NCBI RefSeq assembly: GCF_039724765.1
Contig: NZ_CP155729.1
Span: forward strand, 3,047,501-3,111,500
DNA from: Sagittula stellata E-37
Lineage (GTDB): Bacteria; Pseudomonadota; Alphaproteobacteria; Rhodobacterales; Rhodobacteraceae
Length of the DNA stretch: 64,000 nucleotides
Direction: 5' to 3'
Shown here: positions 21,465 to 36,472 of the stretch, one piece after another
Layout: each line of letters opens with the position of its first letter
Numbering within the stretch: the first letter of the stretch is position 1
Made by a program: the position numbers and the translations under genes
The notes under the pieces: model-generated
Seen by the model: only the letters and a program-made list of their open reading frames with translations
The model's database searches: none
Told to the model about the DNA's origin: nothing

Positions 21465-22217
21465 TCAAGCGCGGTAGTCGCTGCCCAGCCCTTCGATCGA
21501 GCGCAAATGGGCGTCCCACTCAAGTTGCAGGTCGCCGTCTTCCTCGTTCATCTGCGCGTATTGCCCGTGGACATGCGCAGCGATGCTGTCTTCCACCATG
21601 CGGAGCGGGCGCCCCGAGGATGTCGCTGCCACCTGGATCTCGCAGGACCGTTCCAGATAGAACATGTTGGAGAACATCTCGGCCGCAGACCGCCCGGTTG
21701 CGATCAGCCCGTGATTGCGCAGGACCATGACCGGGTGGGTGCCAAAGTCTGCCACGATGCGCGCGCGCTCTTCGAGGTCGAGCGCGATGCCTTCGAAATC
21801 ATGGTAGGCTGTGCGATTGTGGAATTGCAGCGAAATCTGGTTGAGCGGCAGCAGCCCCTCCTCCATGCAGGACACAGCCACCCCTGCGCGGGTGTGCGTG
21901 TGCATGATCCAGGCTGCGTCATGCCGGTGCATGTGGACCGCCGAATGGATGGTAAACCCCGCCGGGTTCACCCGGTGCGGGCTGCCGTCAACCTTGTTGC
22001 CGTCTACGTCGATCTTGACCAGCGACGAAGCGGTGATCTCTTCCCAGCGCCAGCCGTAGGGGTTGATCAGGAAATGCCCCTCCTCGCCCGGCACGCGGGC
22101 GGTAATATGGGTGTAGATCAGATCGGTAAAGCGATGCAGCGCCGCCAGGCGGTAGCAGGCGGCCAAGTCTTCGCGGGTCTGTTTCTCTTCGGGAGACATC
22201 TTGGGTCCATTCCTCAA
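21465..22217 (-). CDS. Class II aldolase/adducin-family protein
   Basis: The product has 250 residues and the class II aldolase fold. It has metal-binding histidines in IMHTHTRAGV and a further His in LRNHGLIATG, plus the N-terminal LAACYRLAALHRFTDLIYTHI block. Members cleave or decarboxylate sugar phosphates and related aldols with a divalent metal. It is the last gene of the carnitine operon and overlaps the upstream dehydrogenase gene by four bases. That suggests a dedicated step in the pathway, but no known carnitine reaction needs it. The true substrate is unknown. A second homologue is at 33606-34340. Confidence 0.82.
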   Translation of the reverse strand: MRNGPKMSPEEKQTREDLAACYRLAALHRFTDLIYTHITARVPGEEGHFLINPYGWRWEEITASSLVKIDVDGNKVDGSPHRVNPAGFTIHSAVHMHRHDAAWIMHTHTRAGVAVSCMEEGLLPLNQISLQFHNRTAYHDFEGIALDLEERARIVADFGTHPVMVLRNHGLIATGRSAAEMFSNMFYLERSCEIQVAATSSGRPLRMVEDSIAAHVHGQYAQMNEEDGDLQLEWDAHLRSIEGLGSDYRA

Positions 22218-23647
22218 TTGCGCTGGCCGACAGAGCCGCCGGCACCGGGCGCATCGCGCCCGGCATGGGCCGCAGCCAGGGTTTCGAGCGCCTCCGCCAC
22301 CGCTGGCTCCGGCAGGCAGGCGCGACGGGTGTTCAGATCGGTGTGCAGCATGAGCGTTTCGATGGTGGCCGCGAGGCTGCCGTCTTCCTTCAGAATGCGG
22401 TGAAAGAGCTTCATCTTCTTGCCTGCCCCTTCGAGCACCTGCGTGGTCACCGTCAGCACCGCCCCCCGATGCACTTCGCCCAAGTACCGAATGCGGGTGT
22501 CGACGGTGAAAAAGCTCTTGCCGCTGGCGACATAGGCATCGTCGGCGCCCACCAGCTTCATCAGGCCGTCGGTGGCCCAGGTGCCAAGTTCGAGATAGGC
22601 GGCCTCGTTCATGTGACCGTTATAGTCGGTCCAGGTCACCGGCACGGCGCGGCGCTGCGTGACCGGCAGCCCGTCGATCTCGCCGTCGGAGTCCAAACTC
22701 TCCTCATGTGCGGTGATCACGCCCCCTGCGCCGCTGCCCGTGCGGCGCAGCCCCCGCAGGATGGCGACGAGGTTGTCGTCGCGCAGGGTTTCCATCCGGG
22801 CGATGGTCATATGGCCGGACTGCGCGTCTGACTGGTCGCTGATGGCCTGCACCAGCGCGGCGTCGAGATCGGGCACATCGGTCAGCCTGGACCACGGCCA
22901 GTGCAGCGACGGGCCGAACTGCTCCATGTAGCTGGCCATGCCGGCCTCGCCGCCTGCCAGGCGATAGGTCTCGAACAGGCCCATCTGCGCAAGCCGCAGG
23001 CCGAAGCCCATGCGCATCGCGTCGTCGATCTGCGCGGTGGTGGCGATGCCGTCCTTGATCATCCACAATGCCTCGCGCCAAATCGCTTCCTGAAAGCGGT
23101 TGCCGATGAAGGCATCGATCTCGGCATGCATCTCCAGCGGGGACATGCCGATGGACTGCACCACGGGCAGAGCCTTGGCGCGCAGCTCCGGCTCGCCGGT
23201 GATCTCCGCCAACGGCAAGAGGTACACCGGGTTGAACGGATGGACCACGACCACCGGCGCTCCGTTCGCCGCAAGGTCAGACGCCTTGAAACCGGAGGTC
23301 GAGGAGGCGATGAACCCACCCTCGGGCAGATGCGCGGCGATCTGGTCGTAGACCTTGTGCTTGAGCTCCAGACGCTCGGACACGCTTTCCTGCACCCAGT
23401 CGGCGCCCTGCAACGCGTCCACGAGGCTGTCGCAGAAAGTCAGCGCGCCCTCGGGCGGCAGCGCCCGGTCGTAGAGCGCGGGAAGCGAGGCGCGGGCCCG
23501 GTCGAGCACCGCGCCGATCTTGCGCTCCGCCTCCGGATCGGGATCGAACACCGCGACGTCCCAGCCGTTCAGCAGGAACCGCGCCGCCCAGCCGCCGCCG
23601 ATGACGCCACCCCCGATGATGGCCGCCTTCTTCGTTGTGGGGGTCAT
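22214..23647 (-). CDS. L-carnitine dehydrogenase fused to betainyl-CoA thioesterase
   Basis: This is a 477-residue two-domain protein. Residues 1-320 are a 3-hydroxyacyl-CoA-dehydrogenase-like NAD enzyme (AAIIGGGVIGGGWAARFLL, VVHPFNPVYLLPLAE). This type oxidises L-carnitine to 3-dehydrocarnitine. Residues from about 330 form a hotdog thioesterase (TWTDYNGHMNEAAYLEL) of the kind that releases glycine betaine from betainyl-CoA. The fusion and its position four bases over the BKACE gene tie steps one and three of aerobic carnitine breakdown together. The assignment is from motif and context; the enzyme family is well described. Confidence 0.87.
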   Translation of the reverse strand: MTPTTKKAAIIGGGVIGGGWAARFLLNGWDVAVFDPDPEAERKIGAVLDRARASLPALYDRALPPEGALTFCDSLVDALQGADWVQESVSERLELKHKVYDQIAAHLPEGGFIASSTSGFKASDLAANGAPVVVVHPFNPVYLLPLAEITGEPELRAKALPVVQSIGMSPLEMHAEIDAFIGNRFQEAIWREALWMIKDGIATTAQIDDAMRMGFGLRLAQMGLFETYRLAGGEAGMASYMEQFGPSLHWPWSRLTDVPDLDAALVQAISDQSDAQSGHMTIARMETLRDDNLVAILRGLRRTGSGAGGVITAHEESLDSDGEIDGLPVTQRRAVPVTWTDYNGHMNEAAYLELGTWATDGLMKLVGADDAYVASGKSFFTVDTRIRYLGEVHRGAVLTVTTQVLEGAGKKMKLFHRILKEDGSLAATIETLMLHTDLNTRRACLPEPAVAEALETLAAAHAGRDAPGAGGSVGQRN

Positions 23648-24564
23648 GCAGGCACCGGCATGTCACGCTTCACGAGGCCAAGCTGGTCGCGGACCTCCTG
23701 CGGGCCCATCAGCGCCGCCCCCATGTTGGCAAGGATGTTCGCCGCCTTCTCCACCAACTGCGCATTGGTCGCCATGACCCCACGTTCGAGATAGAGGTTG
23801 TCCTCGAGGCCCACCCGCACGTTGCCCCCGGCCAGGGCTGCTGCGGCCACATAGGGCATCTCGTCCCGGCCGAGGCTGAACGCCGACCAGGTCCAACCGG
23901 CGGGCACGTTGTTGACCATAGCCATGAACGTGTTCATGTCCCCCGGCGCGCCCCACGGGATGCCCATGCAAAGCTGCACCAGCGCGGGATCGTCCAGCAC
24001 ACCTTCCTTCACCAGCTGCTTGGCGAACCACAGGTGCCCGGTGTCGAAGGCCTCGATCTCGGGTTTCACGCCAAGCTCGGTCATCATCGCGCCCATGGCA
24101 CGCAGCATCTCGGTGGTGTTGGTCATCACGTAGGTGCCATCACCAAAGTTCATCGACCCGCAGTCGAGCGTGCAGATCTCCGGAAGGCAATCGCGGATAT
24201 GCGCCATGCGCTCGGTCGCGCCCGCCATGTCGGTGTTGGCCGTGTCCAACTGCATCGGGGTCTCGACATCGCCGAAGGTCAGATCGCCCCCCGTCCCGGC
24301 GGTGAGGTTCAACACGACGTCCACCTCGGACGAACGGATGCGGTCCGTCACCTCGCGGAACAGCGCCACGTCGCGGCAGGGCGCACCGGTCTCGGGGTCG
24401 CGGACGTGGCAATGCACCACCGCGGCGCCCGCCTTGGCTGCTTCGATGGCGGCCTCGGCGATCTCCTTGGGCGAGCGCGGCACGTGCCGGCTCTTGTCCT
24501 GCGTGGCCCCCGCCCCGGTGATGGCGGCAGTGATGAAAGGCTTGCGGTTCATCTGAAGGGTCAT
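23644..24564 (-). CDS. BKACE-family beta-keto acid cleavage enzyme (DUF849), dehydrocarnitine-specific by context
   Basis: The 306-residue protein shows the DUF849/BKACE pattern. An N-terminal FITAAITGAG is followed by the metal-site VHCHVRD and the central ESFD-like IEAFDTGHLWFA. GGNVRVGLEDNLYL comes near the C-terminus. These Zn enzymes transfer acetyl-CoA onto a beta-keto acid; the carnitine-pathway member makes betainyl-CoA plus acetoacetate from 3-dehydrocarnitine. The genes for the preceding and following reactions overlap its 3' end, which supports this substrate. Confidence 0.88.
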   Translation of the reverse strand: MTLQMNRKPFITAAITGAGATQDKSRHVPRSPKEIAEAAIEAAKAGAAVVHCHVRDPETGAPCRDVALFREVTDRIRSSEVDVVLNLTAGTGGDLTFGDVETPMQLDTANTDMAGATERMAHIRDCLPEICTLDCGSMNFGDGTYVMTNTTEMLRAMGAMMTELGVKPEIEAFDTGHLWFAKQLVKEGVLDDPALVQLCMGIPWGAPGDMNTFMAMVNNVPAGWTWSAFSLGRDEMPYVAAAALAGGNVRVGLEDNLYLERGVMATNAQLVEKAANILANMGAALMGPQEVRDQLGLVKRDMPVPA

Positions 24565-24573
24565 GGGATCTCC

Positions 24574-25356
24574 TTACCGGCCCTTCCAGACCGGATCTCG
24601 TTTTTCGGCGAAGGCGCGGGCGCCTTCCTTCTGGTCCTCGGAGCGGTAGAGCTTTTCCACCGTCTCGAACTGGCTGGCGTTGATGCGGTTGAGGGCGTCC
24701 TGGAACTTCATGTCCTCGGCCTCGCGCGCGATCTCCTTGATGGCGGCAAAGACCAGCGGCGGTCCGGCGGCCAGCTCGTCGGCCATCTTGCGGGCCTCGG
24801 ACATGAGATCGGCGGCGGGGACGATCCGGTTGACCAGCCCCCAGCAATGCGCTTCCTCGACATCGAACCAGCGCCCGGTGAAGAGCAGCTCCATGGCGAT
24901 GTGATAGGGAATGCGCTTGGGCAGCCTCAGCGTCGCCGCATCGGCCACGGTGCCCGACTTGATCTCCGGAAGGGCAAAGCTGGCGTGATCCGCGGCAAGG
25001 ATGATGTCGGCGCTGATCGCAAGCTCCAGCCCGCCGCCGCAGGCGATGCCGTTGACGGCGGCGATCACCGGCTTGTTGAGACCACGCAGTTCCTGCAATC
25101 CGCCGAAGCCGCCCTTGCCATAGTCGCCATCGGCGCCCTCGCCCCCCGCGGCGGCCTTGAGGTCCCAGCCGGGGCAGAAGAACTTCTCGCCCTGCGCGGT
25201 AAGGATCGCCACGCGCAGCTCGGGATCGTCGCGGAAATCGGTGAAGATCTCGCCCAGCTCTCGCGAGGTCGCCATGTCGATGGCATTGGCCTTGGGCCGG
25301 TTCAGTGTGACTTCGAGCACCGCGCCGCGGCGCTCGGTCAGAACGTTCTGGGTCAT
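24574..25356 (-). CDS. caiD: Enoyl-CoA hydratase family, crotonobetainyl-CoA hydratase-like
   Basis: The product has 260 residues and the crotonase fold. The oxyanion-hole segments are FFCPGWDLKAAA and NGIACGGGLELAI. The FxxGWDLKAAA stretch resembles CaiD (carnitinyl-CoA dehydratase) more than ordinary beta-oxidation enzymes. It would hydrate crotonobetainyl-CoA to L-carnitinyl-CoA. It lies between the CoA ligase and the BKACE gene, overlapping the ligase by four bases. Exact substrate remains inferred. Confidence 0.82.
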   Translation of the reverse strand: MTQNVLTERRGAVLEVTLNRPKANAIDMATSRELGEIFTDFRDDPELRVAILTAQGEKFFCPGWDLKAAAGGEGADGDYGKGGFGGLQELRGLNKPVIAAVNGIACGGGLELAISADIILAADHASFALPEIKSGTVADAATLRLPKRIPYHIAMELLFTGRWFDVEEAHCWGLVNRIVPAADLMSEARKMADELAAGPPLVFAAIKEIAREAEDMKFQDALNRINASQFETVEKLYRSEDQKEGARAFAEKRDPVWKGR

Positions 25357-27392
25357 TCTTCCATCCTGATCAGGGCATCCGCCGCCACCGCGTCCGTCGC
25401 GCGGCAGATCAGCGGATTGATTTCGATTTCGTGCAGCGCACCGGCGTGCTGCTGCACCAGCTTTTGCAGTGCCATCGCGGTGTCGATGACCGCGTCGACA
25501 TCGGCCCCGGCACGGCCCCGGTAGCCGGTCAGCAGCGGCGCGGTGCGCAGGCTTTGCAACGCCGCCGCGATGTCCTCGCGTGTGGCCGGGATCAGCACCG
25601 AGGCGGTGTCGCGGATCAGTTCAGTTAGGATCCCGCCAAGCCCCAGCGTCAGCACGAAGCCATGCGCCGCATCGCGCGTGACGCCGATGATCAGCTCGGC
25701 CACGGTGCCGGTGATCATCTCTTCCACGAGAAAGCTCTCGGCCGGCATCTTCGCGGCGGCCTCGGCCACCGCCTGCGCGGTGGCGAGGTTCAGCACCACC
25801 GCCCCGGCCTCGGTCTTGTGAGCGATGCCCTCGCCTTTGAGCACCACGGGAAAGCCGATCCGCGCGGCAGCCTCGGCAGCCTCGGCCGGATCACCGGCAC
25901 GGGAGGCGCCAGGTACCCGCACGCCGAAGCTCTTGAGCAGCGCCTTGGCCTCGGCCTCGGAGAACACCCGCGCAGCGCCATGTCCATTCACCGGCAGGGT
26001 CACCGGGTCTGGACGGGCGTTGCGGCGGTCCGGCGCGGTAACGGCGGCGCGGATCGCCCGCAGCGCATCTCCCATACCACAGAGCGGGACGATCCCCATG
26101 GTCATCGCCCTTTGCGCCACCGCCTCGGGCAACCCCTCGGAGAGCAGCGAGACCATCGCCATCGGCGTGCCTGTGATTTCGCGGGCCTTCGCAACGGCAC
26201 GCAGGACCTGATCGTAATCGGGCGCCTCGAACCGGTCGTTGCGGGGGTAGTCCAGCACGACGCAGCCAAGCCCAAGCTCCGCCGTGCAGAGCGCCGTGAA
26301 GGTCGCCGTCAGCGCGTCTTCGTCGCCCCAGATATAGGTGTTGTAATCCAGCGGATTGGCGAGCGCGACCTTGGGGCCGAGCACCGCGCGCAGGCCGGTT
26401 TTCTGCGTATCGGTCAGCGCCGGATAGGTGACCCCCGCGATTTCGCCCATATCCGCCATCAACGACGCCTCGCCTCCGGAACAGGAGGCCGAAGCGATGC
26501 GCGACGACCGTAGCCCGCCGGTCACGTGCAGGATCTTCAGCGTCTCGACCAGCTCGGTCGGCGTGTCCACCTGTGCGATGTCCAGCCGCCGCAAGAGCGC
26601 CCGCGCGCCCGCGTCCGAGCCGGTGAGCGAGGCCGTATGCGACACCGCCGCCGTCTGCGCCTGCTCGGACGCGCCGACGCGCAGCGCGACGATGGGCTTG
26701 CCCAGTTCGGCGGCACGGCCGGCCAGCGCTTCGAAGGCAGGCAGATCGCTGATCCCTTCGATGTGCAGGCCAAGCGCGGTGATGCGCGGATCTTCAAGCA
26801 GCGCAATGCCGAGATCCGACATCGAGGTCTGCGCCTGATTGCCCGCCGCGACCACGGCGGCGAGCGGCAGGCCGCGCCGTTGCATGGTCAGGTTGATGAG
26901 CACGTTGGAGGACTGGCCGATCACGGCCACGCCGGACTCGACCGGTGACATTCCGTGCCGGTCGGGCCAGAGCGCCATGCCATCCAGCGCATTGACGATG
27001 CCATAGCAGTTCGGCCCCAGAACCCGCATCTCTCCGGCCGCGTCTACAAGCTGCGCCTGAAGCGCGTCGCCATCGACAAGCTCGGACACCGCCTCCGAGA
27101 AGCCGGCGGCGAAACAGACCGCGCCACCGCATCCCATGGCGGAGAGCTCGCGCGCCATGGTCACCGTCAGCTCCCGGTTGACGCCGATGAAGGCCGCGTC
27201 GGGCACCCCCGGCAAGGAGGCGAGGTCCGGATAGGCGGGCACCCCGCCGACCTCCGATTTCTTCGGATGCACGGGCCATATCGGCCCGGCAAAGCCGGTG
27301 GCACGGCACTGGCGCACCACCGCCTCGCACCAAGCGCCGCCACCGATCACGGTGACGGCCTTCGGCGAGAAGAACCGGCTTAGCGGCGACAT
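25353..27392 (-). CDS. ADP-forming acyl-CoA ligase (acetate-CoA ligase family)
   Basis: This 679-residue single-chain enzyme has an N-terminal CoA-binding domain (SPKAVTVIGGGAWCEA) and central succinyl-CoA-ligase-like domains with the His motif SHTASLTGSD. A C-terminal ATP-grasp domain begins near residue 455 (GFPVVLKGEGIAHKTEAG, VEEMITGTVAELIIGV). Such enzymes make acyl-CoA from acid, ATP and CoA, releasing ADP, and are reversible. Given its neighbours it probably activates gamma-butyrobetaine or carnitine. This differs from the AMP-forming CaiC of enterobacteria. Confidence 0.85.
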   Translation of the reverse strand: MSPLSRFFSPKAVTVIGGGAWCEAVVRQCRATGFAGPIWPVHPKKSEVGGVPAYPDLASLPGVPDAAFIGVNRELTVTMARELSAMGCGGAVCFAAGFSEAVSELVDGDALQAQLVDAAGEMRVLGPNCYGIVNALDGMALWPDRHGMSPVESGVAVIGQSSNVLINLTMQRRGLPLAAVVAAGNQAQTSMSDLGIALLEDPRITALGLHIEGISDLPAFEALAGRAAELGKPIVALRVGASEQAQTAAVSHTASLTGSDAGARALLRRLDIAQVDTPTELVETLKILHVTGGLRSSRIASASCSGGEASLMADMGEIAGVTYPALTDTQKTGLRAVLGPKVALANPLDYNTYIWGDEDALTATFTALCTAELGLGCVVLDYPRNDRFEAPDYDQVLRAVAKAREITGTPMAMVSLLSEGLPEAVAQRAMTMGIVPLCGMGDALRAIRAAVTAPDRRNARPDPVTLPVNGHGAARVFSEAEAKALLKSFGVRVPGASRAGDPAEAAEAAARIGFPVVLKGEGIAHKTEAGAVVLNLATAQAVAEAAAKMPAESFLVEEMITGTVAELIIGVTRDAAHGFVLTLGLGGILTELIRDTASVLIPATREDIAAALQSLRTAPLLTGYRGRAGADVDAVIDTAMALQKLVQQHAGALHEIEINPLICRATDAVAADALIRMEE

Positions 27393-27395
27393 GGC

Positions 27396-28556
27396 TCAGG
27401 CTCCCAGCGGCCGGAAAATCTCCCGGCTGATGATGTGGCGCTGGATCTCGGACGTGCCGTCCCAGATGCGCTCCACCCGCGCGTCACGCCAGAAGCGTTC
27501 GATCGGCAGTTCGTCCATCAGACCCATGCCGCCGTGGATCTGGAGGGCCGCATCGGTGACGCGGGCAAGCATCTCCGAGGCATAGAGCTTGGCCGAGGCG
27601 ATCTCGCGGTTTGCGGGCAGCCCCTGGTCGAGACGCCAGGCGGCGGCGAGGGTCAGCCAGTCGGCGGCGTCGATCTCGGTGATCATGTCGGCGATCTGGA
27701 AGCTCACGCCCTGGAACTTGCCGATGGGCTGGCCGAACTGCTTGCGTTCGGCGGCATATTGCACCGCGTGGTCATAGACCCGGCGCGCCCGACCGACAGA
27801 GTTGGTCGCGACGGTGATGCGCGTGGCATAGAGCCATTCGTTCATCACGTCGAAGCCGCCGTCGACCTCGCCCAGCACCTGCGCGTCAGACAGACGGCAG
27901 TTGTCGAAATAGAGGATGCTGTTCTGGTAGCCCCGGTGCGACACGGAATTGTAGCCGCGCGCGATCTCGAACCCCGGCGTGCCGCGATCCACCAGGAAAC
28001 AGGTGATGCGCTTCTTGGGGCCGCGCGGGGTCTCATCGACGCCGGTGGCGACGAAGACGATGACGAAATCCGCGTGCTCCGCGCCGGAGATGAAGTGCTT
28101 GGAGCCGTTCACCACCCAGTCGCCTCCGTCGCGCACAGCCGAGCATTTCATGCCCCGCACGTCGGACCCGGCGTCCGGTTCGGTCATCGCGAGCGCATCC
28201 ATCTTCTCCCCGCGCACCGCAGGCATCAGATACTTCTCGACCTGCTCGCCCTCGCAGGCCATCAGGATGTTCTGCGGGCGCCCGAAGAAATGGGTCAGTG
28301 CCATCGAGCCGCGGCCAAGCTCGCGCTCGACCAGCGCGAAATCGACGTGGGACAGGCCCGGGCCGCCGACGCTCTCGGGGAAGTTCGAAGCGTAAAAGCC
28401 CAGGTCGAGGCACTTTTGCTTGATGTTCTGCGCAATCTCGGCGGGCACCTCGCCGGTGCGCTCGACGAGCGCCTCGTGCGGGTAGATCTCGTTCTCGACG
28501 AAACTACGGACGGTGGAGACGATCATCTCCTGTTCTTCGGTCAGTCCAAAATGCAT
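27396..28556 (-). CDS. Acyl-CoA dehydrogenase, gamma-butyrobetainyl-CoA dehydrogenase by context
   Basis: The product has 386 residues, the standard acyl-CoA dehydrogenase length. Signatures are ALAMTEPDAGSDVRGM for FAD/substrate contact, RKQFGQPIGKFQ, and the C-terminal QIHGGMGLMDELPIERFWRDAR. The catalytic base in this family is a Glu near residue 370; WDGTSEIQRHIISR carries the expected Glu. It would oxidise gamma-butyrobetainyl-CoA to crotonobetainyl-CoA. It is the first catabolic gene after the transporter genes, three bases upstream of the CoA ligase. Confidence 0.84.
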   Translation of the reverse strand: MHFGLTEEQEMIVSTVRSFVENEIYPHEALVERTGEVPAEIAQNIKQKCLDLGFYASNFPESVGGPGLSHVDFALVERELGRGSMALTHFFGRPQNILMACEGEQVEKYLMPAVRGEKMDALAMTEPDAGSDVRGMKCSAVRDGGDWVVNGSKHFISGAEHADFVIVFVATGVDETPRGPKKRITCFLVDRGTPGFEIARGYNSVSHRGYQNSILYFDNCRLSDAQVLGEVDGGFDVMNEWLYATRITVATNSVGRARRVYDHAVQYAAERKQFGQPIGKFQGVSFQIADMITEIDAADWLTLAAAWRLDQGLPANREIASAKLYASEMLARVTDAALQIHGGMGLMDELPIERFWRDARVERIWDGTSEIQRHIISREIFRPLGA

Positions 28557-28560
28557 GGGT

Positions 28561-28577: not shown

Positions 28578-28637
28578 CGGAAGGTCCGGGGTGGGTTCGG
28601 TCCACGCCCGGGCTGCGGGCGCGGGAATGGGGCGGGA

Positions 28638-29447
28638 TCAGCGCAAGCTTTCCTTGCGCATCAACATCGCGGCGCGGATGACGACCAGCAAGGTTACCAC
28701 GCAGATCAGCAACACCGAAAGCGCGGCGATCGAAGGATCGACATTGTCACGCAGTCCCATCCACATGCGGCGCGGCAGGGTGATCGTCTCGACCGAGGTG
28801 ACGAAGAGCGTCACACCGATCTCGTCCCAGCTGAGCAGGAAGCACAGGAAGAACGCGCCGATCAGGCCGAAGCGGATGTTGGGGATGATGACTCCGAAGA
28901 CGCGGGTCGGCACGCTTGCCCCCATCGACTGTGCGGCAAGGTCCATACGCCGGTCGAGCTGGCTGAGCGAGACCATGATCACCACCACAGCGTATGGCAC
29001 GACCATGACCATGTGCGCCAGCACCACTCCGCCGAGCTTGTCGTAGGCGATGATGTCGTTCCAGCGGGCCATCTTGTTGAGGAAGAAATACAGCGTCAGC
29101 GAAGACACCACGGGCGGAGCCATCATCGGCAGCAGCACGAAGCCGGTCATCAGCCCCGCGCCGCGCGGACGCAGCATCCAGATGCCGATGCAGAAGGCCG
29201 CCGCCAGCGCCACCGCAAGGAAGCTGGCCAGAACGCCGACCTGCACCGATGTCAGAAGGCTCTGCCCCCACTCGGCATCTTCGAAGAGCGCGGCGTAGTG
29301 CCGCCAGGACCATTCGCCGTTCGGCAGGGACAGGTAGCGCCGCGACGTGAAGCTGACCGGGACCACCGCGATCAGCGGCATCAGCAGGAAGACCGCGACG
29401 AGGCCCGAGAGGAGCGTGGCGATGACGCCGGGACGAAGCCTGTTCAT
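28638..29447 (-). CDS. ABC transporter permease, PotC type
   Basis: The 269-residue inner-membrane protein has six hydrophobic segments. The cytoplasmic EAA loop is recognisable as AAQSMGASVPTRVFGVIIPNIR. The ATG at 29447 is chosen because it overlaps the stop of the preceding permease (ATGA); the longer frame from 29540 overlaps that gene heavily. It belongs to the spermidine/putrescine-type importer class, whose members also carry quaternary amines and opines. With the adjacent carnitine genes it probably imports carnitine or gamma-butyrobetaine. Confidence 0.88.
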   Translation of the reverse strand: MNRLRPGVIATLLSGLVAVFLLMPLIAVVPVSFTSRRYLSLPNGEWSWRHYAALFEDAEWGQSLLTSVQVGVLASFLAVALAAAFCIGIWMLRPRGAGLMTGFVLLPMMAPPVVSSLTLYFFLNKMARWNDIIAYDKLGGVVLAHMVMVVPYAVVVIMVSLSQLDRRMDLAAQSMGASVPTRVFGVIIPNIRFGLIGAFFLCFLLSWDEIGVTLFVTSVETITLPRRMWMGLRDNVDPSIAALSVLLICVVTLLVVIRAAMLMRKESLR

Positions 29448-30253
29448 TTCGCCATCTCCCCGTAGCGGCGCATCAGCACGTAGAGGATGCCCCCGACCCC
29501 GAGCATCAGCACCACGCTCATCGCGGCGGCCATGCCCCATTGCGGGATCTGGAAGATCCAGAGGTAGATCAGTTCCGCCACCAGCACCGACTGTCCACCG
29601 CCCAGCAGCGCGGGCGTCACGTAGAAACCGATGGAGAAGACGAACACGAGCAGGGTCGCGCCCAGGATGCCGCTGGAGGTCATCGGCAGGAAAACCTGCC
29701 AGAAGATCCGCAGCCGCGATGCGCCCATTCCGTCGGCTGCGGTCAGCACGCGTTCATCGACGTTGCGCATGGCCGTGGCGAGCGGAAAGACCGCGAAAGG
29801 GATCAGGTAGTGCGACATGCCGACGACCACGGCAAACTCGTTGCGGGTCATCTGGATGGCGCTGTCGATCAGCCCCATGTCCTGCAGCCACGTGTTCAGC
29901 AGGCCACGGTTGGACAGCATCGACAGCCAGCCGAACGCGCGGCTGAGAACCGAGATCCAGAACGGGATCATGATGCACAGCTCGGTGATAGAGCGCACCA
30001 GCGGCGAGCCCCGCACCCAGAGCAGTGTGATGACATAGGCGCAGCTTACCGACACGGCGGTGACCATCACGCACAGGCGCAGGGTCCGCCAGATGACGCC
30101 AGTGGGCAGATCCTCGGTCAGCACGCGGCTGTACTGGGCCAGCCCCGGATCGGGGTCGGTGAAGCTCAGCTGCACGATCCCCAGGAACGGCAGCAGGTAG
30201 CTGACTCCGAGAAACAGCAGCACGGGACATATGAGAAAGAGGAAGGCGCGCAT
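29444..30253 (-). CDS. ABC transporter permease, PotB type
   Basis: The 269-residue protein has six predicted membrane segments. The EAA motif is seen as TAADGMGASRLRIFWQVFLPMT. It pairs with the downstream PotC-type permease through a four-base overlap. It starts 64 bases after the binding-protein gene. Confidence 0.88.
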   Translation of the reverse strand: MRAFLFLICPVLLFLGVSYLLPFLGIVQLSFTDPDPGLAQYSRVLTEDLPTGVIWRTLRLCVMVTAVSVSCAYVITLLWVRGSPLVRSITELCIMIPFWISVLSRAFGWLSMLSNRGLLNTWLQDMGLIDSAIQMTRNEFAVVVGMSHYLIPFAVFPLATAMRNVDERVLTAADGMGASRLRIFWQVFLPMTSSGILGATLLVFVFSIGFYVTPALLGGGQSVLVAELIYLWIFQIPQWGMAAAMSVVLMLGVGGILYVLMRRYGEMAK

Positions 30254-30317
30254 GGGGTCTCCGGTCCGCCGCCCCGGTCAAGGGCGGCGGTCGTTGAAAA
30301 TCAGGCGGAGGCGTCGA

Positions 30318-31424
30318 TCAGGCCGAGATGATCTGAAGATAGGCGTCGAGCGCGGCGCCGTAGTTTTCTTCGTACCAGTCGGTGTCCAGAGCGATCTGCT
30401 TCGGCAGGTTCTCGGGATCCATCGCATTGAAGCGGCGCTCGTCTTCGGGGATCAGCGCGTCGGCGGCGGGGTTCGACGGCGCGTTGCCCAGCATCTGGAA
30501 CAGCACGACCTGGCGCTCTGGCTCCTGCGTGGCGGCGATGTAGCGCATCGCGGCCTCGGTGCCGCCCGGGTTGTCCTTGAGCACGCCGATGCCGCCCGGG
30601 CCGATGATGCCATCCTGCCAGGTGAAGGTGATCTCGCCTTCGGTATCCTTGTGCAGCAGGCTCGCGCGGGTATTCCAGATCAGCGCCATCGACACGTCGC
30701 CGTTCAGCAGCAGCGACTGGCTTTCCGCGCCGCCGCCCCAGAAGGCGCCGATGTGCTCCTTGAAGCCATCGATCTTCGCATGGGCACGCTCGAGGTCGAG
30801 CGGATAGAGGTCTTCGGGCGCGACGCCATCAGCGAGCAGCGCTGCCTCCCACATGCCCGCGCCCCATTTATACATGGACCGCTTGCCGGGGAACTTCTCG
30901 GTGTCGAAGAAATCTGCGATCGAGGTCGGCGGCTCGTCGAACCGCGTCGCATCGTAGGCGATGACGTAGCTGTAGAAATAGCACGACGAGCTGTATTCCC
31001 AGCCGAAGCCCTCACGCTGCTTGGCCTTGTCGACGATGTCATAGTCGATGGGCGTCATCAGCCCCTTACGCCCCAGCGCCTGCGACGAGAACGGGTCCGC
31101 ATCCACAAGATCCCAGGTCGGGTTGCCGCCCTGTACCTGCGCGGTGATCGCGCCCTCGGTCGGGCCGGAGCCGTCATAGAGCACCTCGATACCGGTCTCT
31201 TCGGTGAACGGCGTACCGAAGGCTTCGTCCATCGCATCGAGCGCATCGCCGCCCCAGTTGACAAAGACCAGCCGGCCCTCCTCCGCCTTCGCCGCGCCCG
31301 CGCCAAGCGCGGTGGTGCCCATAAGAGCCGCAAAGCCCTGCAGCATCTGGCGGCGCGAGATTTGCCCCTTCGCGGCGCGCTCTTTCAGGATTTCCACGAG
31401 GTCGTTCTGAAAATGGGTGTTCAT
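30318..31424 (-). CDS. Periplasmic substrate-binding protein with twin-arginine signal, PotD type
   Basis: The precursor has 368 residues. The N-terminal ISRRQMLQGFAALMGTTALG with AKA-EE at the cleavage point is a twin-arginine-like signal. The mature part resembles PotD-class extracellular solute-binding proteins (LVFVNWGGDALDAMDEAF, LVDADPFSSQ, SMALIWNTRA). Aromatic residues in WEYSSSCYFYSY may form a cation-pi cage for a quaternary ammonium group; that is speculation. The ATG at 31424 follows AGGTGAG; a longer frame from 31541 is rejected. Confidence 0.88.
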   Translation of the reverse strand: MNTHFQNDLVEILKERAAKGQISRRQMLQGFAALMGTTALGAGAAKAEEGRLVFVNWGGDALDAMDEAFGTPFTEETGIEVLYDGSGPTEGAITAQVQGGNPTWDLVDADPFSSQALGRKGLMTPIDYDIVDKAKQREGFGWEYSSSCYFYSYVIAYDATRFDEPPTSIADFFDTEKFPGKRSMYKWGAGMWEAALLADGVAPEDLYPLDLERAHAKIDGFKEHIGAFWGGGAESQSLLLNGDVSMALIWNTRASLLHKDTEGEITFTWQDGIIGPGGIGVLKDNPGGTEAAMRYIAATQEPERQVVLFQMLGNAPSNPAADALIPEDERRFNAMDPENLPKQIALDTDWYEENYGAALDAYLQIISA

Positions 31425-31510
31425 TGGTCTCACCTGTTTGTTTTTTATAAGGGTATCGTCGTCCCGAAGCGACCTGCGCCGCGGGTCGGGGATGTGTCGT
31501 GTGACCGACG

Positions 31511-32551
31511 TCAGATGGCGAAGCTGTCGCCGGTGTGCCATGCCACACGAAGTTCGGTGCCCGGATCGGGAGGCGGCACTCCGGGACCGTTGTCGAAATA
31601 GAGCATCAGCTCTTCACCCGTCTGGGTTTCCAGAAGCAGCCGGGATTTCGAGCCGAGATAGACCCGGTCGCGCATCGTTACCGGCAGTTGGTTGGTGTCA
31701 GTGCCCGTGGCAAGGCGCATGTGTTCGGGGCGGATCGCCAGCGTGTCGAAGGCACCCGCATTGGTGGGCAGCTCGATCGGCGCGCCGGAAAGACCCGCAA
31801 GCGACAGGATGTTGATGTCACCGAGGAATTCCGCGGTGAAGCGGTTGGCGGGGCGCTCGTAGACCTCGGCCGGTGTGCCGATCTGTTGCAGCTCGCCCTG
31901 ATTGAAGATCGCCACGCGGGACGACAACGCCAGCGCCTCTTCCTGGTCGTGGGTGACGAAGACGAAGGTTGTACCCAGCTCTCGGTGCAGGCGGCGCAGC
32001 TCTTCCTGCATCTGCCCGCGCAGGTTCTTGTCGAGGGCCGAGAACGGCTCGTCAAGCAGCAGCACCTTGGGCTCGTAGGCCAGCGCCCGAGCCAGTGCGA
32101 CCCGCTGCTGCTGCCCGCCCGAAAGCGCCTTGGGCTTCTTGTTGGCGTGACCGTCGAGGCCGACCATCTCGACCATCTGCGCGACGCGGTCGGCAATCTG
32201 CGCCTTGCCGCGTTTCTGCACCTTCAGCGGGAAGGCAATGTTCTCGGCCACGGTGAGATGCGGGAACAGGGCATAGCCCTGGAACACCATGCCGAAGCCG
32301 CGCTGGTTGGCAGACCAGTTCGTCATGTCCTGCCCTTCGAGAAGCAGCTGGCCCGATGTCACCGGCTCGTATCCGCCAAGCAGCGTGAGAAAGGTGGTCT
32401 TGCCCGAGCCCGATGGACCGAGCAGGGAGAGAAACTCGCCCTCCGAAACCCCGAGGGAAATATCCCGCAAAGCGTGGAACTTCCCAAATTTTTTTCCGAC
32501 CGAACGTGCTTCGATCTGCGTTGTGTCTGACACAATCGCCTCGCTCTTCAT
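31511..32551 (-). CDS. ABC transporter ATP-binding protein, PotA type
   Basis: The product has 346 residues. It has Walker A GPSGSGKTTFL, the signature LSGGQQQRVALARAL and Walker B VLLLDEPFSALD. A C-terminal TOBE-like regulatory domain (LAIRPEHMRL) is typical of the spermidine/putrescine class. ACAGGA before ATG 32551 sets the start. It is the first gene of the transport/catabolism run, with the likely operator at 32616-32642 upstream. Confidence 0.92.
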   Translation of the reverse strand: MKSEAIVSDTTQIEARSVGKKFGKFHALRDISLGVSEGEFLSLLGPSGSGKTTFLTLLGGYEPVTSGQLLLEGQDMTNWSANQRGFGMVFQGYALFPHLTVAENIAFPLKVQKRGKAQIADRVAQMVEMVGLDGHANKKPKALSGGQQQRVALARALAYEPKVLLLDEPFSALDKNLRGQMQEELRRLHRELGTTFVFVTHDQEEALALSSRVAIFNQGELQQIGTPAEVYERPANRFTAEFLGDINILSLAGLSGAPIELPTNAGAFDTLAIRPEHMRLATGTDTNQLPVTMRDRVYLGSKSRLLLETQTGEELMLYFDNGPGVPPPDPGTELRVAWHTGDSFAI

Positions 32552-32615
32552 TCCTGTCCGTTGTGGACCAAGGGTGCGGGGCGCAGAGCCGAACTGCAAA
32601 TGAAACTCATTCAGA

Positions 32616-32642
32616 GGCGTGACAAATTTCTTTTGTCACGCC
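32616..32642. promoter_or_regulatory. Perfect hairpin/operator between LysR and transporter genes
   Basis: GGCGTGACAAA and its exact complement flank a five-base spacer, covering the LysR stop codon and lying 65 bases upstream of the PotA-type start. It could terminate the LysR transcript or serve as the operator for the transport operon. It contains the TTTCTTTTGT word shared with 28567-28576. Confidence 0.5.
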
Positions 32643-33547
32643 CTCTGGGAGGAGCTGAGCCGGCTAAATTCAACTTTTGATTTCAACCACTTATGGAACT
32701 CTTCAACAATGGGATTTTCGAGGTTTTCCTTGGGCGTGCAAACGAAATAACCTGTGCCCGCGTGCAAGGACGCTGAAAACGGCCGCATCAGACGCCCGTC
32801 TCGCAGGTCCTTTCCCCAAAGAACCGTGTCGCCGATGGCGATCCCCTCCCCCGCCAGAACCGCCGTATGGACGATGTTCATGTCCGAGTAGCAGATGCCG
32901 CGCCGGGCATCCTCGGCCGGCAACCCCGAGAGGGCCATCCAGCCCTCCCAGTCGGTGAAATCGGTCATGTGCAAAAGTGTCGCCTGCTGCAAGATGCGCA
33001 GATCGTTGAAGCTCTCGAATCGGCTGAGATAGGCAGGGCTGCACAGCGGCGTGAACTCAACCTCGAATAGTGGCTCGGTCCTAAGGTTGGCGCGCGACTC
33101 TTGCCCGAAAGTGATGAAGGTGTCGATCTCGGGATTGGTGGTGTCTGCCATCTTGTGCGAGCTCAGCACGGTCACCACCACGTCGGGATGCTCGTCGATG
33201 AAATCGCCCAAATGCAGACACAGCCAGCCATCGGCAAAGCCGGGTGTGGCGCTGATCGTCAGTGACCCGGTCAGCCCCTCCTGCGCCACCCGCGCGGTGG
33301 AGGTGGCGATCATGCTGAGCGCACGGCGCACGTCCTCGGCATAAGCGCGGGCGCGGGGCGTGATCTCGGACTTGTTGCCGCTGCGTTCGACGATCTTGAA
33401 ACCGAGATCCGCCTCGAGCAGCCGCAACTGGTGGCTGATCGCGCTGCGAGTAACGTTCAGCTCGGCTGCGGCGCGCCAGAGAGCACCGTTGCGAGCGACA
33501 CTCTCGATGGCACGCAGCGCCTGAATGGAGGGGTAGCGTTTGATGAT
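32636..33547 (-). CDS. LysR-family transcriptional regulator (start uncertain)
   Basis: The protein is about 303 residues. It has an N-terminal winged helix (YPSIQALRAIESVARNGALW, ELNVTRSAISHQLRLLE) and a substrate domain with GFADGWLCLHLGDFIDEHPDVVV. Homology should begin at Ile-Ile-Lys-Arg, but the codons there are ATC-ATC. The nearest in-frame ATG is 39 codons further up, inside the preceding gene. A GAGG lies close to the ATC codons, so a rare ATC start is possible. It probably regulates the downstream transporter/carnitine operon. Confidence 0.75.
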   Translation of the reverse strand: MIKRYPSIQALRAIESVARNGALWRAAAELNVTRSAISHQLRLLEADLGFKIVERSGNKSEITPRARAYAEDVRRALSMIATSTARVAQEGLTGSLTISATPGFADGWLCLHLGDFIDEHPDVVVTVLSSHKMADTTNPEIDTFITFGQESRANLRTEPLFEVEFTPLCSPAYLSRFESFNDLRILQQATLLHMTDFTDWEGWMALSGLPAEDARRGICYSDMNIVHTAVLAGEGIAIGDTVLWGKDLRDGRLMRPFSASLHAGTGYFVCTPKENLENPIVEEFHKWLKSKVEFSRLSSSQRA

Positions 33548-33564
33548 AGGCCTCGCGCTTGGAT

Positions 33565-33591
33565 GCCCCCGCTGGATACACCGGCGGGGGC
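33565..33591 (-). terminator. GC-rich stem-loop between aldolase-family gene and LysR
   Basis: An 11-bp stem (one wobble) of GCCCCCGC-type arms with a five-base loop lies 15 bases after the aldolase-family gene stop and just before the LysR start. It lacks a T run and may attenuate read-through. Confidence 0.5.
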
Positions 33592-33605
33592 CTACATGCG
33601 AGCGC

Positions 33606-34340
33606 TCAGAGCGCAGGGAGCTGCGACTTGAGAAAGTCGAAGTGCCGTTCTGCCATTCCGGCATAGGCCCGCCAGCCATCGGCGGTGTTCTGCGCCACTG
33701 CGTCTGAGAGCACCGCAAGCGGTTCTCCCGTTGATCGGGCCAGGATCAGCGTCTGTGCCGCCTTCTCGAAGAAGTAGAGATCCTCGAAGGCCGCCGCGAC
33801 AGTCTCGCCGGTAACGGTGACGCCATGGTTGCCCATCACCAGCACGCTTTTGTCGCCCAGCGAGTCCGCCAGCCGCTCGCCCTCTTCCTCGGCGTCGGCA
33901 ATGCCGCCGAAGTCGAGATCATAAGCGGTACGCCCGTAGAATCGCGCGGTGTTGTTGTCGATCGGCACGACGGTCGGGTCCTTCAGGCAGGCCAGCGCCG
34001 TTGCGTAAGGCGAATGCGCGTGCAGGATCACTTTTGCTTCGGGTTTCTTGCGGTGCAGCGTTCCATGCACGCACCAGGCCGAGGCGTCGGGCGAGCCCTC
34101 CCCCTCGATCACCCGCCCGTCGCGGGCGTCGATGCGCAGCAGATCCTGCGGGCGGATCGACGCGAAATGCTGCCAGCAGGGATTCAGCAGAAACTCGTGT
34201 TCGCTGACGGCAGCGCTGAAATGGTTGCCGACCGACTCGCTCCAGCCCATCTGGTGGCAGATGCGGAAGGCGGCCGAGAGATCCTGGCGCAGGGCGGCAG
34301 TCTCCCCGGCGTTGCCGGTCATCTGGGTCAGGTCCTTCAT
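33606..34340 (-). CDS. Class II aldolase/adducin-family protein, second copy
   Basis: The product has 244 residues, with metal-site histidines in VILHAHSPYATAL and LVMGNHGVTVTG, and SVGNHFSAAV near the N-terminus. It is only distantly similar to the copy at 21465-22217. It overlaps the oxygenase gene by four bases, forming a two-gene unit. Its substrate is unknown. The pairing suggests that it acts on a product of the oxygenase or of a related trimethylammonium compound. Confidence 0.82.
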   Translation of the reverse strand: MKDLTQMTGNAGETAALRQDLSAAFRICHQMGWSESVGNHFSAAVSEHEFLLNPCWQHFASIRPQDLLRIDARDGRVIEGEGSPDASAWCVHGTLHRKKPEAKVILHAHSPYATALACLKDPTVVPIDNNTARFYGRTAYDLDFGGIADAEEEGERLADSLGDKSVLVMGNHGVTVTGETVAAAFEDLYFFEKAAQTLILARSTGEPLAVLSDAVAQNTADGWRAYAGMAERHFDFLKSQLPAL

Positions 34341-35473
34341 TTGAAACGCCCCTCGCTCACCAGCGCGCGGTAAGTGGACCGCATCTCGGCCCGGTCGGTG
34401 TAGGTGCCGCGCAGGTAGCGGTCACCGCTTTCGGCGGTATAGGCCGCGCGGCCATGCACGATGCGGTGGTTGTCGAAGACCATGCATTCGCCGGCCTTCA
34501 TCATGAAGGTCATCATATACTTCTCTTCCTGAAGCATCTTCCCGAAGCGGCAGAACGCCGGATACCAGCGGTCGAGCAGCTCTTGATCCAGATCTGAGAT
34601 GTCCAGCATGTGCTGGCTGATGGTCAGACCCGAGACCTCACCGTGCTGGTCCAGCTCGATGATCGTCTGGCGCGAGCGCATGTCGTAGGTGTCGTGCTCG
34701 CAGAAGAAGGGCACCTTGGTTTCCGCGAGCAGCTTGAACCCCTCGGGATCACGCGCGCGGAAATCGTTCGCCACCGCAACGCCGTCGGCATAGAGGCTGT
34801 AGCCGCCCTCGACCGTGTTGGCGCGGCAATGCAGGAACTGCACGCCGGGGGCATGTTCTTCGGCGGGGGTGTCGGTGTGCAGCTCCAGCGCCGAGGCGGT
34901 GTAGGCGGTGTTGGTCGGGTTGATGTGAGTCTTTACGTCGAAGTAGTCGCCAAAGAAGGTCGGGCGGACCCGTCCGATCATCTCGGCAGTCTCGGTAAGA
35001 CCCTCGTCGCTATCCGGCATGTCGGTGAGGATCACGAAGCCCTTGACCAGCATCGCCTCGATCCACTTGGCGCGCAGCTCCGGATCGGCCTTGAGCGCGG
35101 GCTGACTGAAGCGCGGCACGTTCGGGTAGTGATCGCCATACCATGCCTCGCGGGCGAGGTCGGCGGGATCGGGGCGGCGCTGCGGTGTCTTGTAAGCCTC
35201 GAGCCATGCCAGCGGGAAACGGGACACGTGGTTTTCGCTTTCCCAGGTGATTTCCAGAACATCGCCGGTCACCTCGGCGGCCTTCGCCTTGGGCGCGGTA
35301 TCGAGGTGGAAGATGTCGAAACTGCGCTCGCGCGTGGCGCTGTTGAACGAGCTGGGGCAGTTGTCGCGCAGCCAGTAATAGTTGAAGTAGTGAGCCTCTC
35401 CGTCGGAGAGGAGGATTTCAAGGCCCGTGTCCTTGAGGACCGGGGCAGCCACGGGGGAGGTCATGACATTCAT
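34337..35473 (-). CDS. Gamma-butyrobetaine hydroxylase-like 2-oxoglutarate/Fe(II) dioxygenase
   Basis: The product has 378 residues. The N-terminal part resembles the BBOX DUF971-type domain (HYFNYYWLRDNC). The C-terminal TauD-type core has the iron ligands His-x-Asp in ELHTDTPAEEH and the distal His in FDNHRIVHGRAAY, with Arg downstream for 2-oxoglutarate. Known family members make L-carnitine from gamma-butyrobetaine, or hydroxylate trimethyllysine. Only one of the zinc-binding cysteines usual in the N-terminal domain is visible. The ATG at 35473 is preferred; ATG 35464 is an alternative. Confidence 0.78.
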   Translation of the reverse strand: MNVMTSPVAAPVLKDTGLEILLSDGEAHYFNYYWLRDNCPSSFNSATRERSFDIFHLDTAPKAKAAEVTGDVLEITWESENHVSRFPLAWLEAYKTPQRRPDPADLAREAWYGDHYPNVPRFSQPALKADPELRAKWIEAMLVKGFVILTDMPDSDEGLTETAEMIGRVRPTFFGDYFDVKTHINPTNTAYTASALELHTDTPAEEHAPGVQFLHCRANTVEGGYSLYADGVAVANDFRARDPEGFKLLAETKVPFFCEHDTYDMRSRQTIIELDQHGEVSGLTISQHMLDISDLDQELLDRWYPAFCRFGKMLQEEKYMMTFMMKAGECMVFDNHRIVHGRAAYTAESGDRYLRGTYTDRAEMRSTYRALVSEGRFK

Positions 35474-35554
35474 GCGTGATACCAGATCTTTGGAGTGAGT
35501 TTGGAGGATTCTGCAAACAAGCATTCCACGCCTTCCTTTCCGCCAAAAGCCGGA

Positions 35555-35569
35555 TTAGCGTGAAGATAA
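35555..35569. promoter_or_regulatory. Candidate LysR box in divergent promoter
   Basis: TTA-N9-TAA contains a T-N11-A core and lies between the divergent oxygenase gene (start 35473) and the LysR gene (start 35591), 22 bases before the latter. This is the usual place for a LysR autoregulatory site. Confidence 0.45.
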
Positions 35570-35590
35570 CTTAAGCCACGGATTAACTTG

Positions 35591-36472
35591 ATGGACCGCC
35601 TGCCCCCACTGCGCCTGCTGACCACATTCGAGGCCGTCGCCCGGCATGGTTCGGCGCGGCTCGCCGCCGCCCGGCTCAACGTAAGCGCGTCCGCGGTGAG
35701 CCAGACCGTCAAAGCGCTCGAGGATCATATCGGCACCTCTCTCTTTGATCGCGGCACGCGTCCCGCGCAGCTGACAGAAGCGGGCGAGCTTCTCTCGCGG
35801 GCGGTACGTGACGGGCTGGGACAGATCGCGGCCGCGCTGGAGGACATCCGGGCACTCAGCGGGCAGGACGGAGCCCAGTTGACAGTGTCGTGCACATTGG
35901 GCATGGCCACCTATTGGTTGATGCCTCGCCTACCTGATTTCTACGCCGCGCACCCGGATGTGACCGTGAACGTACAAGCTCCGGCAACCGACCTGCCGCA
36001 CCTGTCCCCCGGCGTCGACGTCGCCATCCGCTACGGCACCGGCGGCTGGAGCGAGGGCACGACAGTGAAACTGTTCGACGAACGCGTTTGCCCGGTGGCG
36101 GCACCCCAGCTGCTCGAAAGCCTTCTCGAAAAGGGGGTTGAGCTCGATACGGCACCACTCATTCACGTGCGCAGCCCGCACAACCAGCATTGGGCCGGCT
36201 GGGAGGAATACCTGCGCACCCGGCGGATCGAACGCAGCCGGCTGTCGGGGCAGACCTTCAACAACTACGTGCAGGCCGCGCAGGCGGTACTGGACGGGCG
36301 CGGTGTCATGCTGGGCTGGCGCTCCATTGCAAGCGGTGCGGTCCGCGAGGGCGCGCTGCGCATGTGGCCAGACGGAGAGCTCGATCTCGGCACATCCTAC
36401 TACGTGACCGGACCTCGACGCCCGTCGGGCCCCGCGCTGGCCTTCCTGGAATGGATCATCGGCAATGAGTGA
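35591..36472 (+). CDS. LysR-family regulator, GcvA-like
   Basis: The product has 293 residues. The N-terminal helix-turn-helix reads LPPLRLLTTFEAVARHGSARLAAARLNVSASAVSQ in order, and the effector domain contains VDVAIRYGTGGW and a C-terminal GTSYYVTGP stretch, as in GcvA-type regulators. The ATG at 35591 is used; a TTG directly before it is also in frame. It is divergent from the gamma-butyrobetaine-hydroxylase-like gene and is its likely regulator. An ISL3 remnant abuts the stop codon. Confidence 0.88.
   Translation: MDRLPPLRLLTTFEAVARHGSARLAAARLNVSASAVSQTVKALEDHIGTSLFDRGTRPAQLTEAGELLSRAVRDGLGQIAAALEDIRALSGQDGAQLTVSCTLGMATYWLMPRLPDFYAAHPDVTVNVQAPATDLPHLSPGVDVAIRYGTGGWSEGTTVKLFDERVCPVAAPQLLESLLEKGVELDTAPLIHVRSPHNQHWAGWEEYLRTRRIERSRLSGQTFNNYVQAAQAVLDGRGVMLGWRSIASGAVREGALRMWPDGELDLGTSYYVTGPRRPSGPALAFLEWIIGNE

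Follow-up and report, generated by a model that had tools for sequence, protein, structure and literature searches.

A gene cluster in Sagittula stellata E-37 raises the question of whether a single locus holds two chemically different routes from gamma-butyrobetaine to L-carnitine, one through coenzyme A (CoA) esters and one by direct hydroxylation. The window, i.e. the whole stretch of 64,000 nucleotides analysed here (contig NZ_CP155729.1, C1:3047501-3111500 of genome G000), lies within a genome of 5.29 Mb. The cluster is composed of 13 consecutive minus-strand genes at 21465-35524, plus a divergent LysR gene at 35588-36472 (LysR2). In minus-strand order, the genes encode an oxygenase of the gamma-butyrobetaine dioxygenase (BBOX) family, the aldolase-like protein AldB, a LysR regulator (LysR1), an importer ATPase, a substrate-binding protein, two permeases, an acyl-CoA dehydrogenase (ACAD), an ADP-forming ligase, a crotonase-type hydratase (ECH), a BKACE, a carnitine 3-dehydrogenase (CDH) fused to a thioesterase, and a second aldolase-like protein, AldA. 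We conclude with moderate confidence that the cluster is an operon for the breakdown of gamma-butyrobetaine and L-carnitine, to which the oxygenase and aldB form a separately regulated add-on. All of the genes named in the original prediction are present, in the order and at the positions it gave. Its description of them as almost all overlapping or a few bases apart holds for 8 of the 12 gaps, which are overlaps or at most 9 bases with the start codons that we picked among the candidates, and is slightly generous for the other four (64-86 bases).

The CoA part of the cluster is an already known pathway. The ligase (25353..27392; PF13380, PF13607 and PF13549, i.e. CoA_binding_2, Succ_CoA_lig and ATP-grasp_5 domains), the ACAD (27396..28556; PF00441, PF02770, PF02771), the CaiD-like hydratase (24574..25356; PF00378, with NF002936 as its best curated model), the BKACE (23644..24564; PF05853 at 327.9 bits, cut-off 24.8) and the CDH fused to a 4HBT-type thioesterase (22214..23647; PF02737, PF00725, PF13279), all on the minus strand, are present together, and they match one to one the five enzymes of Sinorhizobium meliloti that we take to define this pathway. 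The same set was reportedly assayed in S. meliloti by Bazire in 2019, covering seven steps from gamma-butyrobetaine to glycine betaine. The fusion protein passes the family model NF005716 (628 bits, cut-off 592), and S. meliloti is not among the eight named control genomes that match this model. According to a passage of PMC12482172, the S. meliloti protein SM2011_c01638 performs both the carnitine dehydrogenase and the betainyl-CoA thioesterase steps, for which it cites the 2019 study.

In the proposed sequence of events, the Pot-type importer would take in a gamma-type trimethylammonium acid, which the ligase, a putative gamma-butyrobetaine-CoA ligase, would convert to its CoA ester. The ACAD, as a putative gamma-butyrobetainyl-CoA dehydrogenase, would yield crotonobetainyl-CoA, and the putative crotonobetainyl-CoA hydratase would yield carnitinyl-CoA, from which the thioesterase part may release L-carnitine. 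The dehydrogenase part would then oxidize L-carnitine to 3-dehydrocarnitine, and BKACE, the putative 3-dehydrocarnitine cleavage enzyme, would convert this with acetyl-CoA to betainyl-CoA and acetoacetate, leaving the thioesterase to produce glycine betaine from betainyl-CoA. We infer these steps because the enzymes are homologous to those of the S. meliloti pathway. Gene content and this enzymology bear out the predicted route to carnitine and on to betaine. The further claim that the route needs no oxygen is correct only in that O2 is not one of its substrates; the ACAD still needs an electron acceptor chain, as acyl-CoA dehydrogenases do.

The gene set is not a chance assembly, since the neighbours recur across the closest ligase loci. 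Ligases of at least 64% identity mark 28 other loci; ACAD and ECH genes adjoin the ligase gene in all 28, BKACE in 27 and the fused dehydrogenase-thioesterase gene in 26, and the module of oxygenase, aldB and LysR2 is present in 18. The closest named relatives of the locus are in Salipiger thiooxidans, Palleronia aestuarii and Alloyangia pacifica, and a plasmid of Palleronia sp. LCG004 is annotated with the identical gene row (ligase identity 92.6%). Across all 80 ligase loci found, the adjoining genes, at the identity limits used, are ACAD in 64, hydratase in 60, BKACE in 48 and CDH in 44. Most loci lacking ACAD (13 of 16) or the hydratase (15 of 20) are among the 17 with ligases below 44% identity, as against fewer than half of those lacking BKACE (15 of 32) or CDH (15 of 36). 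The ADP-forming ligase is thus the rule for the gamma-butyrobetaine CoA pathway. The original prediction regarded this ligase as a departure from textbook loci; this is contradicted by its place beside ACAD in 64 of the 80 loci and by its presence in the rhizobial five-gene cluster. That five-enzyme block, in the order BKACE-CDH-ACAD-ligase-hydratase, recurs in Rhizobium phaseoli, in Mesorhizobium loci and in Sulfitobacter sp. W027; on the R. phaseoli plasmid pBS3b the row reads GlxA-type regulator, BKACE, CDH, ACAD, ADP-forming ligase and hydratase. The S. meliloti and rhizobial clusters resemble the window in the five enzyme families, and the ADP-forming ligase is shared with a rhizobial relative, whereas the rhizobial clusters seen differ in gene order, use another importer, and have neither the oxygenase-aldB module nor aldA.

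The oxygenase (34337..35524, minus strand; PF02668 and PF06155) is a TauD-type 2-oxoglutarate (2OG)/Fe enzyme of the BBOX/TmpA family and carries a GBBH-like_N domain. Its likely start at 35473 gives 378 amino acids, as in several close homologues, and its relatives of solved structure include TmpA (E 5e-57) and human BBOX (E 8e-45). It is the sole BBOX-family match in its genome at E 0.001, and matches at this threshold occur in 80 of 295 Rhodobacteraceae genomes. These fall into identity groups: clade I, to which the window protein belongs, at 48% or above (24 genomes, one with a fragment), clade II at 36-43%, and the rest mostly at or below 34%. In a tree of 91 rows, from which proteins below 300 residues were omitted, clade I forms 48 rows with support 100/100 and a stem of 1.37. 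TmpA lies within a supported seven-row set (100/99) together with six rows of the third group; human BBOX and DfmD join the tree on long branches, and their placement was left unused. According to a part of PMC9296572, most proteins of the BBOX clade belong to carnitine metabolism by gene neighbourhood.

The residue pattern sets clade I apart. In an alignment that omitted duplicates and tblastn pieces below 330 residues, the first substrate Asn, the first Fe His and the Fe Asp are invariant across the 47 clade I rows read, and all 39 rows that could be read at the last Fe His and the 2OG arginine have both; the window oxygenase itself retains the Fe-binding H, D, H and the 2OG arginine. At the acid end, 45 of the 47 clade I rows share S-Q-H, the other two having S-G-H, in a register that rests on alignment through clade II, whereas human BBOX has N-N-A and TmpA has N-N-R (the roles of the acid-end and substrate residues being taken partly from a portion of PMC9296572). 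The 11 clade II members read show N-A-H in eight and S-I-H, S-S-H and S-N-H in one each. Among the eight rows read of the group at or below 34% identity, seven (30-33%) have N-N-R, all with an adjoining TmpB gene, and row L143 (33%) reads T-S-F and stands apart. The four positions taken as the aromatic cage are F, F, Y, Y in the window protein and Y, W, Y, Y in human BBOX; in the more distant members of clade I, the first of them is occupied by Glu, Asp or Ser. The window oxygenase is like human BBOX and TmpA in family, Fe triad and first substrate Asn, and differs from both in its S-Q-H end and from TmpA systems in having no TmpB neighbour.

The public names given to close homologues differ between gamma-butyrobetaine dioxygenase and trimethyllysine dioxygenase. 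In a set of 240 alphaproteobacterial genomes, eight proteins (L191-L198) exceed the cut-off of TIGR02409, the gamma-butyrobetaine dioxygenase model; they carry N-N-R in five cases and N-S-R in three, which is close to the TmpA pattern, and TmpB adjoins five of the eight loci. The model probably also admits TmpA-type enzymes. Among 185 genomes from the gammaproteobacterial class to which genome G323 belongs, six contain relatives (E 1e-40) of a bacterial reference BBOX.

The link of the oxygenase to the CoA genes is real, as the two stand side by side in five arrangements. In the 18 closest-ligase loci with the module, it is placed as in the window in 13, just before ACAD in three, and convergently after CDH in two; in Sulfitobacter sp. 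W027, LysR-oxygenase-aldB follows directly downstream of the block in rhizobial order, and in G092, a deep-branching member, aldB-oxygenase directly precedes ACAD-ligase-hydratase. We take the five layouts as repeated recruitment of the module. Within 10 kb of the oxygenase in 23 clade I genomes of the 295 (24 if G006, a 171-residue fragment with one stop, is included), aldB is found in 21, LysR2 in 15 at the identity used, a hydroxyisobutyrate-dehydrogenase-like gene in 10, a glucose-methanol-choline (GMC) oxidoreductase in seven, an aldehyde dehydrogenase in six and a sugar-acid-dehydratase-like gene in five. In these counts some loci are cut by contig ends, and aldB was counted by tblastn, as the open reading frame (ORF) caller missed some aldB genes. 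In Paracoccus seriniphilus the oxygenase neighbours a glycine betaine importer and an aminomethyltransferase-family gene, and in Agrobacterium vitis purU, folD and an electron transfer flavoprotein (ETF)-ubiquinone oxidoreductase gene; both settings indicate betaine metabolism. The annotated neighbours in Pseudooceanicola algae belong to neither the betaine nor the C1 type, and its ligase gene is carried on the same plasmid at a distance of about 17 kb. A recurring Rhodobacteraceae module of oxygenase, class II aldolase and hydroxyisobutyrate-dehydrogenase-like gene (L119, L123, L124, L126-L129, L237) was also seen, to which some or all of gluconate/galactonate-dehydratase-like, GMC and betaine aldehyde dehydrogenase (BADH)-like genes are added.

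Separate regulation of the module is suggested by its upstream region. LysR2 (35588..36472, plus strand; PF03466 and PF00126) and the oxygenase gene are divergent in 36 of 37 loci (opposite strands, less than 400 bases; L112 was dropped from the alignment), with 101-160 bases between the assumed starts. Of 102 well-filled columns, 14 in this intergenic alignment are conserved at 85% or above, and 12 of these fall inside an operator-like, TTAA-rich box (35541..35587, core 35554-35574). The window has a single match to the box with up to three mismatches, located before the oxygenase, and none of 100 shuffles gave one. The box, together with the module's own LysR gene, suits a predicted separate control of the oxygenase. 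The other regulator, LysR1 (32636..33718, minus strand; PF03466 and PF00126), lies between aldB and the importer genes.

The partner of the oxygenase, AldB (33606..34340, minus strand; PF00596), is a class II aldolase/adducin family protein of the PRK07490 type (NF005689 at 334 bits, cut-off 260), and its gene overlaps the oxygenase stop by four bases. AldA (21465..22217, minus strand; PF00596), encoded at the operon end, is of the PRK07044 type (NF005451 at 358 bits, cut-off 207) and is present in 21 of the 28 closest-ligase loci. Neither family model carries a function. Both proteins keep the metal-binding H-x-H and the distal His, and have Gly/Ala at the position that we take to be the catalytic Glu of fuculose-phosphate aldolase; AldB has no diagnostic activity motif. 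The closest solved relatives include adducin, NovR, TqaM and 4xxf, the last named a fuculose-1-phosphate aldolase and also lacking that Glu in the alignment. Our guess, which would suit AldA beside CDH and AldB beside the oxygenase, is that such a protein decarboxylates or cleaves a keto or hydroxy betaine in a metal-dependent manner.

Several observations weigh against reading the cluster as such an operon with its add-on. Among the CoA enzymes, the hydratase scores 329 bits with the CaiD model, under the cut-off of 500, the ACAD scores 184.9 bits with the CaiA model, under 540, and no curated model covers the substrate of the ligase. The oxygenase misses the TIGR02409 cut-off (278.8 against 414.75 bits), and Gln takes the place of the second substrate-acid Asn of human BBOX and TmpA. 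In the family-wide set, the ligase lies within 10 kb of the oxygenase in only 4 of the 23 clade I genomes (in the other 19 it does not, G117 having it at about 11 kb), and the hydroxyisobutyrate-dehydrogenase-like and GMC genes are neighbours in 10 and seven of them. The ligase match is barely enriched: 180 of all 295 genomes have one, and so do 17 of the 24 with a clade I oxygenase. Nine of the genomes of the 10 closest-ligase loci that have no oxygenase were searched (L025 lay outside this search): no BBOX-family match at E 0.001 was found in L005, L011 and L074, so that the CoA block can stand alone; L018 and L019 carry clade II only, and L007, L014, L015 and L016 have clade I elsewhere; in L015 a contig end probably splits what is one locus. 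For CDH, a match in 21 of 24 clade I genomes, as read from listings, has little power, because a relative at E 1e-70 already occurs in 217 of the 295.

In the favored reading, oxygenase and aldB would be a repeatedly recruited add-on under LysR2, in which the oxygenase would most likely act on gamma-butyrobetaine or a similar trimethylammonium acid, hydroxylating the second carbon counted from the nitrogen, as judged from BBOX and TmpA, and would feed the same betaine end. The original prediction went further and made the enzyme a true gamma-butyrobetaine hydroxylase, so that L-carnitine would be reached by two parallel routes from the same substrate, chosen by oxygen or supply. This is plausible, and we hold it to be quite possible though short of an even chance. 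Direct hydroxylation is a known bacterial route to carnitine, the oxygenase adjoins gamma-butyrobetaine CoA genes in the five arrangements, the residues that bind Fe and 2OG are retained together with one of the substrate Asn residues, and in genome G013, which has no ligase match at E 1e-100, a related clade II oxygenase adjoins BKACE and CDH. However, the score of 279 bits falls well below the cut-off of 415, S-Q-H replaces N-N-A, the operator-like box is not found before the CoA genes of the window, and aldB, a partner in 21 of 23 genomes, is unneeded for converting gamma-butyrobetaine to carnitine. The TmpA model NF049936 scores slightly better, at 286 bits, yet also fails its cut-off of 400. 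Judged by sequence, the oxygenase is neither a demonstrated nor a well-fitting gamma-butyrobetaine hydroxylase, and the assignment in the original prediction does not stand on these scores and the missing acid Asn. Two other identities were rejected: that of TmpA, by the NF049936 score, S-Q-H in place of N-N-R and the absence of TmpB within 10 kb, and, as the leading account, a trimethyllysine route in which oxygenase and aldolase would lead to gamma-butyrobetaine, by a TIGR02410 score of 184.6 against 268.3 bits and by the absence of a pyridoxal phosphate (PLP) aldolase or aldehyde dehydrogenase among the scanned operon genes.

The near-constant presence of aldB, and the dehydrogenase, sugar-acid-dehydratase-like, GMC and aldehyde-dehydrogenase genes that several members add, would be accounted for if oxygenase and AldB processed another trimethylammonium acid, with AldB cleaving or decarboxylating the product, sometimes after oxidation by the hydroxyisobutyrate-dehydrogenase-like enzyme, and the route joining at betaine. 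The distinct clade with its own acid-end residues is consistent with this, as are the betaine uptake and demethylation neighbours in P. seriniphilus and purU, folD and ETF-QO in A. vitis. It names no demonstrated candidate substrate, however, AldB has no diagnostic motif, and the dehydrogenase partner (at least 60% identity) is not specific to clade I: 14 of the 23 clade I genomes have it, and so do 7 of 20 genomes without an oxygenase and all 7 of TmpA type; we regard this account as possible but hold it tentatively. More doubtful is the stronger form in which clade I would be a new 2OG oxygenase specificity, for a trimethylammonium acid other than gamma-butyrobetaine or for another regio- or stereoisomer, read by the S-Q-H end. 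AldB would then cleave or decarboxylate the product or a derived keto acid, e.g. a 3-keto betaine to a ketone or betaine aldehyde, making a second, unnamed entry to betaine catabolism that was recruited several times beside the carnitine operon. By far the least probable is that the ACAD-like protein is a trimethylamine (TMA) lyase of the BbuA kind, splitting gamma-butyrobetainyl-CoA into trimethylamine and crotonyl-CoA. According to PMC8364193, BbuA is homologous to acyl-CoA dehydrogenases and uses gamma-butyrobetainyl-CoA, but the bbu cluster, compared by its description there, has CoA transferases and ferredoxin. We rejected this reading since the neighbouring ligase, CaiD-like hydratase, BKACE and CDH require crotonobetainyl-CoA. 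Trimethylammonium compounds are a large marine nitrogen and methyl pool, and carnitine-to-betaine genes are common. If the oxygenase is truly a second route from the same substrate, one operon would hold both chemistries and their division of labour would be directly testable; otherwise the many proteins named gamma-butyrobetaine dioxygenase in this group point to an unassigned betaine substrate. Either way, that name should not be transferred unchecked.

Comparison with other systems places the cluster further. The E. coli cai operon likewise has a CaiD-like hydratase and an acyl-CoA dehydrogenase working on CoA esters of the carnitine family, whereas the window has an ADP-forming ligase, misses the CaiA and CaiD cut-offs, and has no CaiB-, CaiC- or CaiT-type gene among the scanned cluster genes. 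The Lonza strain HK4 is comparable by its route description rather than by genes: one passage of PMC2131755 describes its conversion of gamma-butyrobetaine to carnitine as analogous to fatty acid degradation, although Table 2 of the same paper gives the strain gamma-butyrobetaine hydroxylase activity, which disagrees with that passage. An Arctic SAR11 island, according to a section of PMC12421898, unites two BBOX-family genes, a class II aldolase, CDH, BKACE and an ABC importer in one region, as the window does with its counterparts, and is interpreted there as serving glycine betaine uptake and production; its gene list in that section differs in having choline and aldehyde dehydrogenases and no ACAD, ligase or hydratase. 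In the open-licence literature searched, we found no paper describing a locus that combines a BBOX-family oxygenase with the CoA route.

The importer genes are all on the minus strand. The PotA-like ATPase (31511..32599, likely start 32551) has PhnT2 and PotA as top models, both under cut-off. The PotD-like binding protein (30318..31541, likely start 31424) was assigned by its nearest solved chains, which are 4eq7/4euo (named polyamine-type), 9d57 (a green fluorescent protein (GFP) fusion), 4i1d and 6dgv, the precursor of a gamma-aminobutyric acid (GABA) sensor. The PotB-like (29444..30253) and PotC-like (28638..29540, likely start 29447) permeases were identified by gene order and tblastn, without a family scan; the former is also listed by tblastn in the 18 of the 28 closest loci that carry potD. 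Gamma-butyrobetaine is trimethylated GABA, and it would be an attractive ligand for the predicted binding protein because the solved relatives include the GABA sensor. In other lineages, different importers adjoin these genes.

Two side observations concern the CoA enzymes. Residue 366 of the ACAD is Asp (in RIWDGTSEI), where the five solved relatives shown carry Glu, the usual catalytic base. Asp stands there in 53 of 53 readable relatives of at least 75% identity, and Glu in 9 of 11 relatives of 50-75%, including the Mesorhizobium loci; by these alignments, the Glu-to-Asp exchange is conserved in the marine branch. The relatives of the ligase with solved structures are 3-hydroxypropionate and 4-hydroxybutyrate ligases and a dimethylsulfoniopropionate (DMSP) lyase. 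The genome has a second CDH-thioesterase fusion (L233, C1:2396089-2397492, plus strand), 55% identical, which scores 724 bits with NF005716, above the 628 of the window copy.

Transposase pieces flank the cluster on both sides, within 19173-20529 and 37317-38878. They comprise IS4/5-type pieces (19173-19604, 38115-38468), DDE-domain pieces (20212-20529, 38489-38878), an integrase core (19665-19979) and an ISL3 zinc ribbon (37317-37793). Together with the plasmid-borne Palleronia copy, they suggest that the cluster is mobile. Past the transposase pieces at the LysR2 end lies a tRNA-Leu(gag) gene (39092-39178, minus strand).

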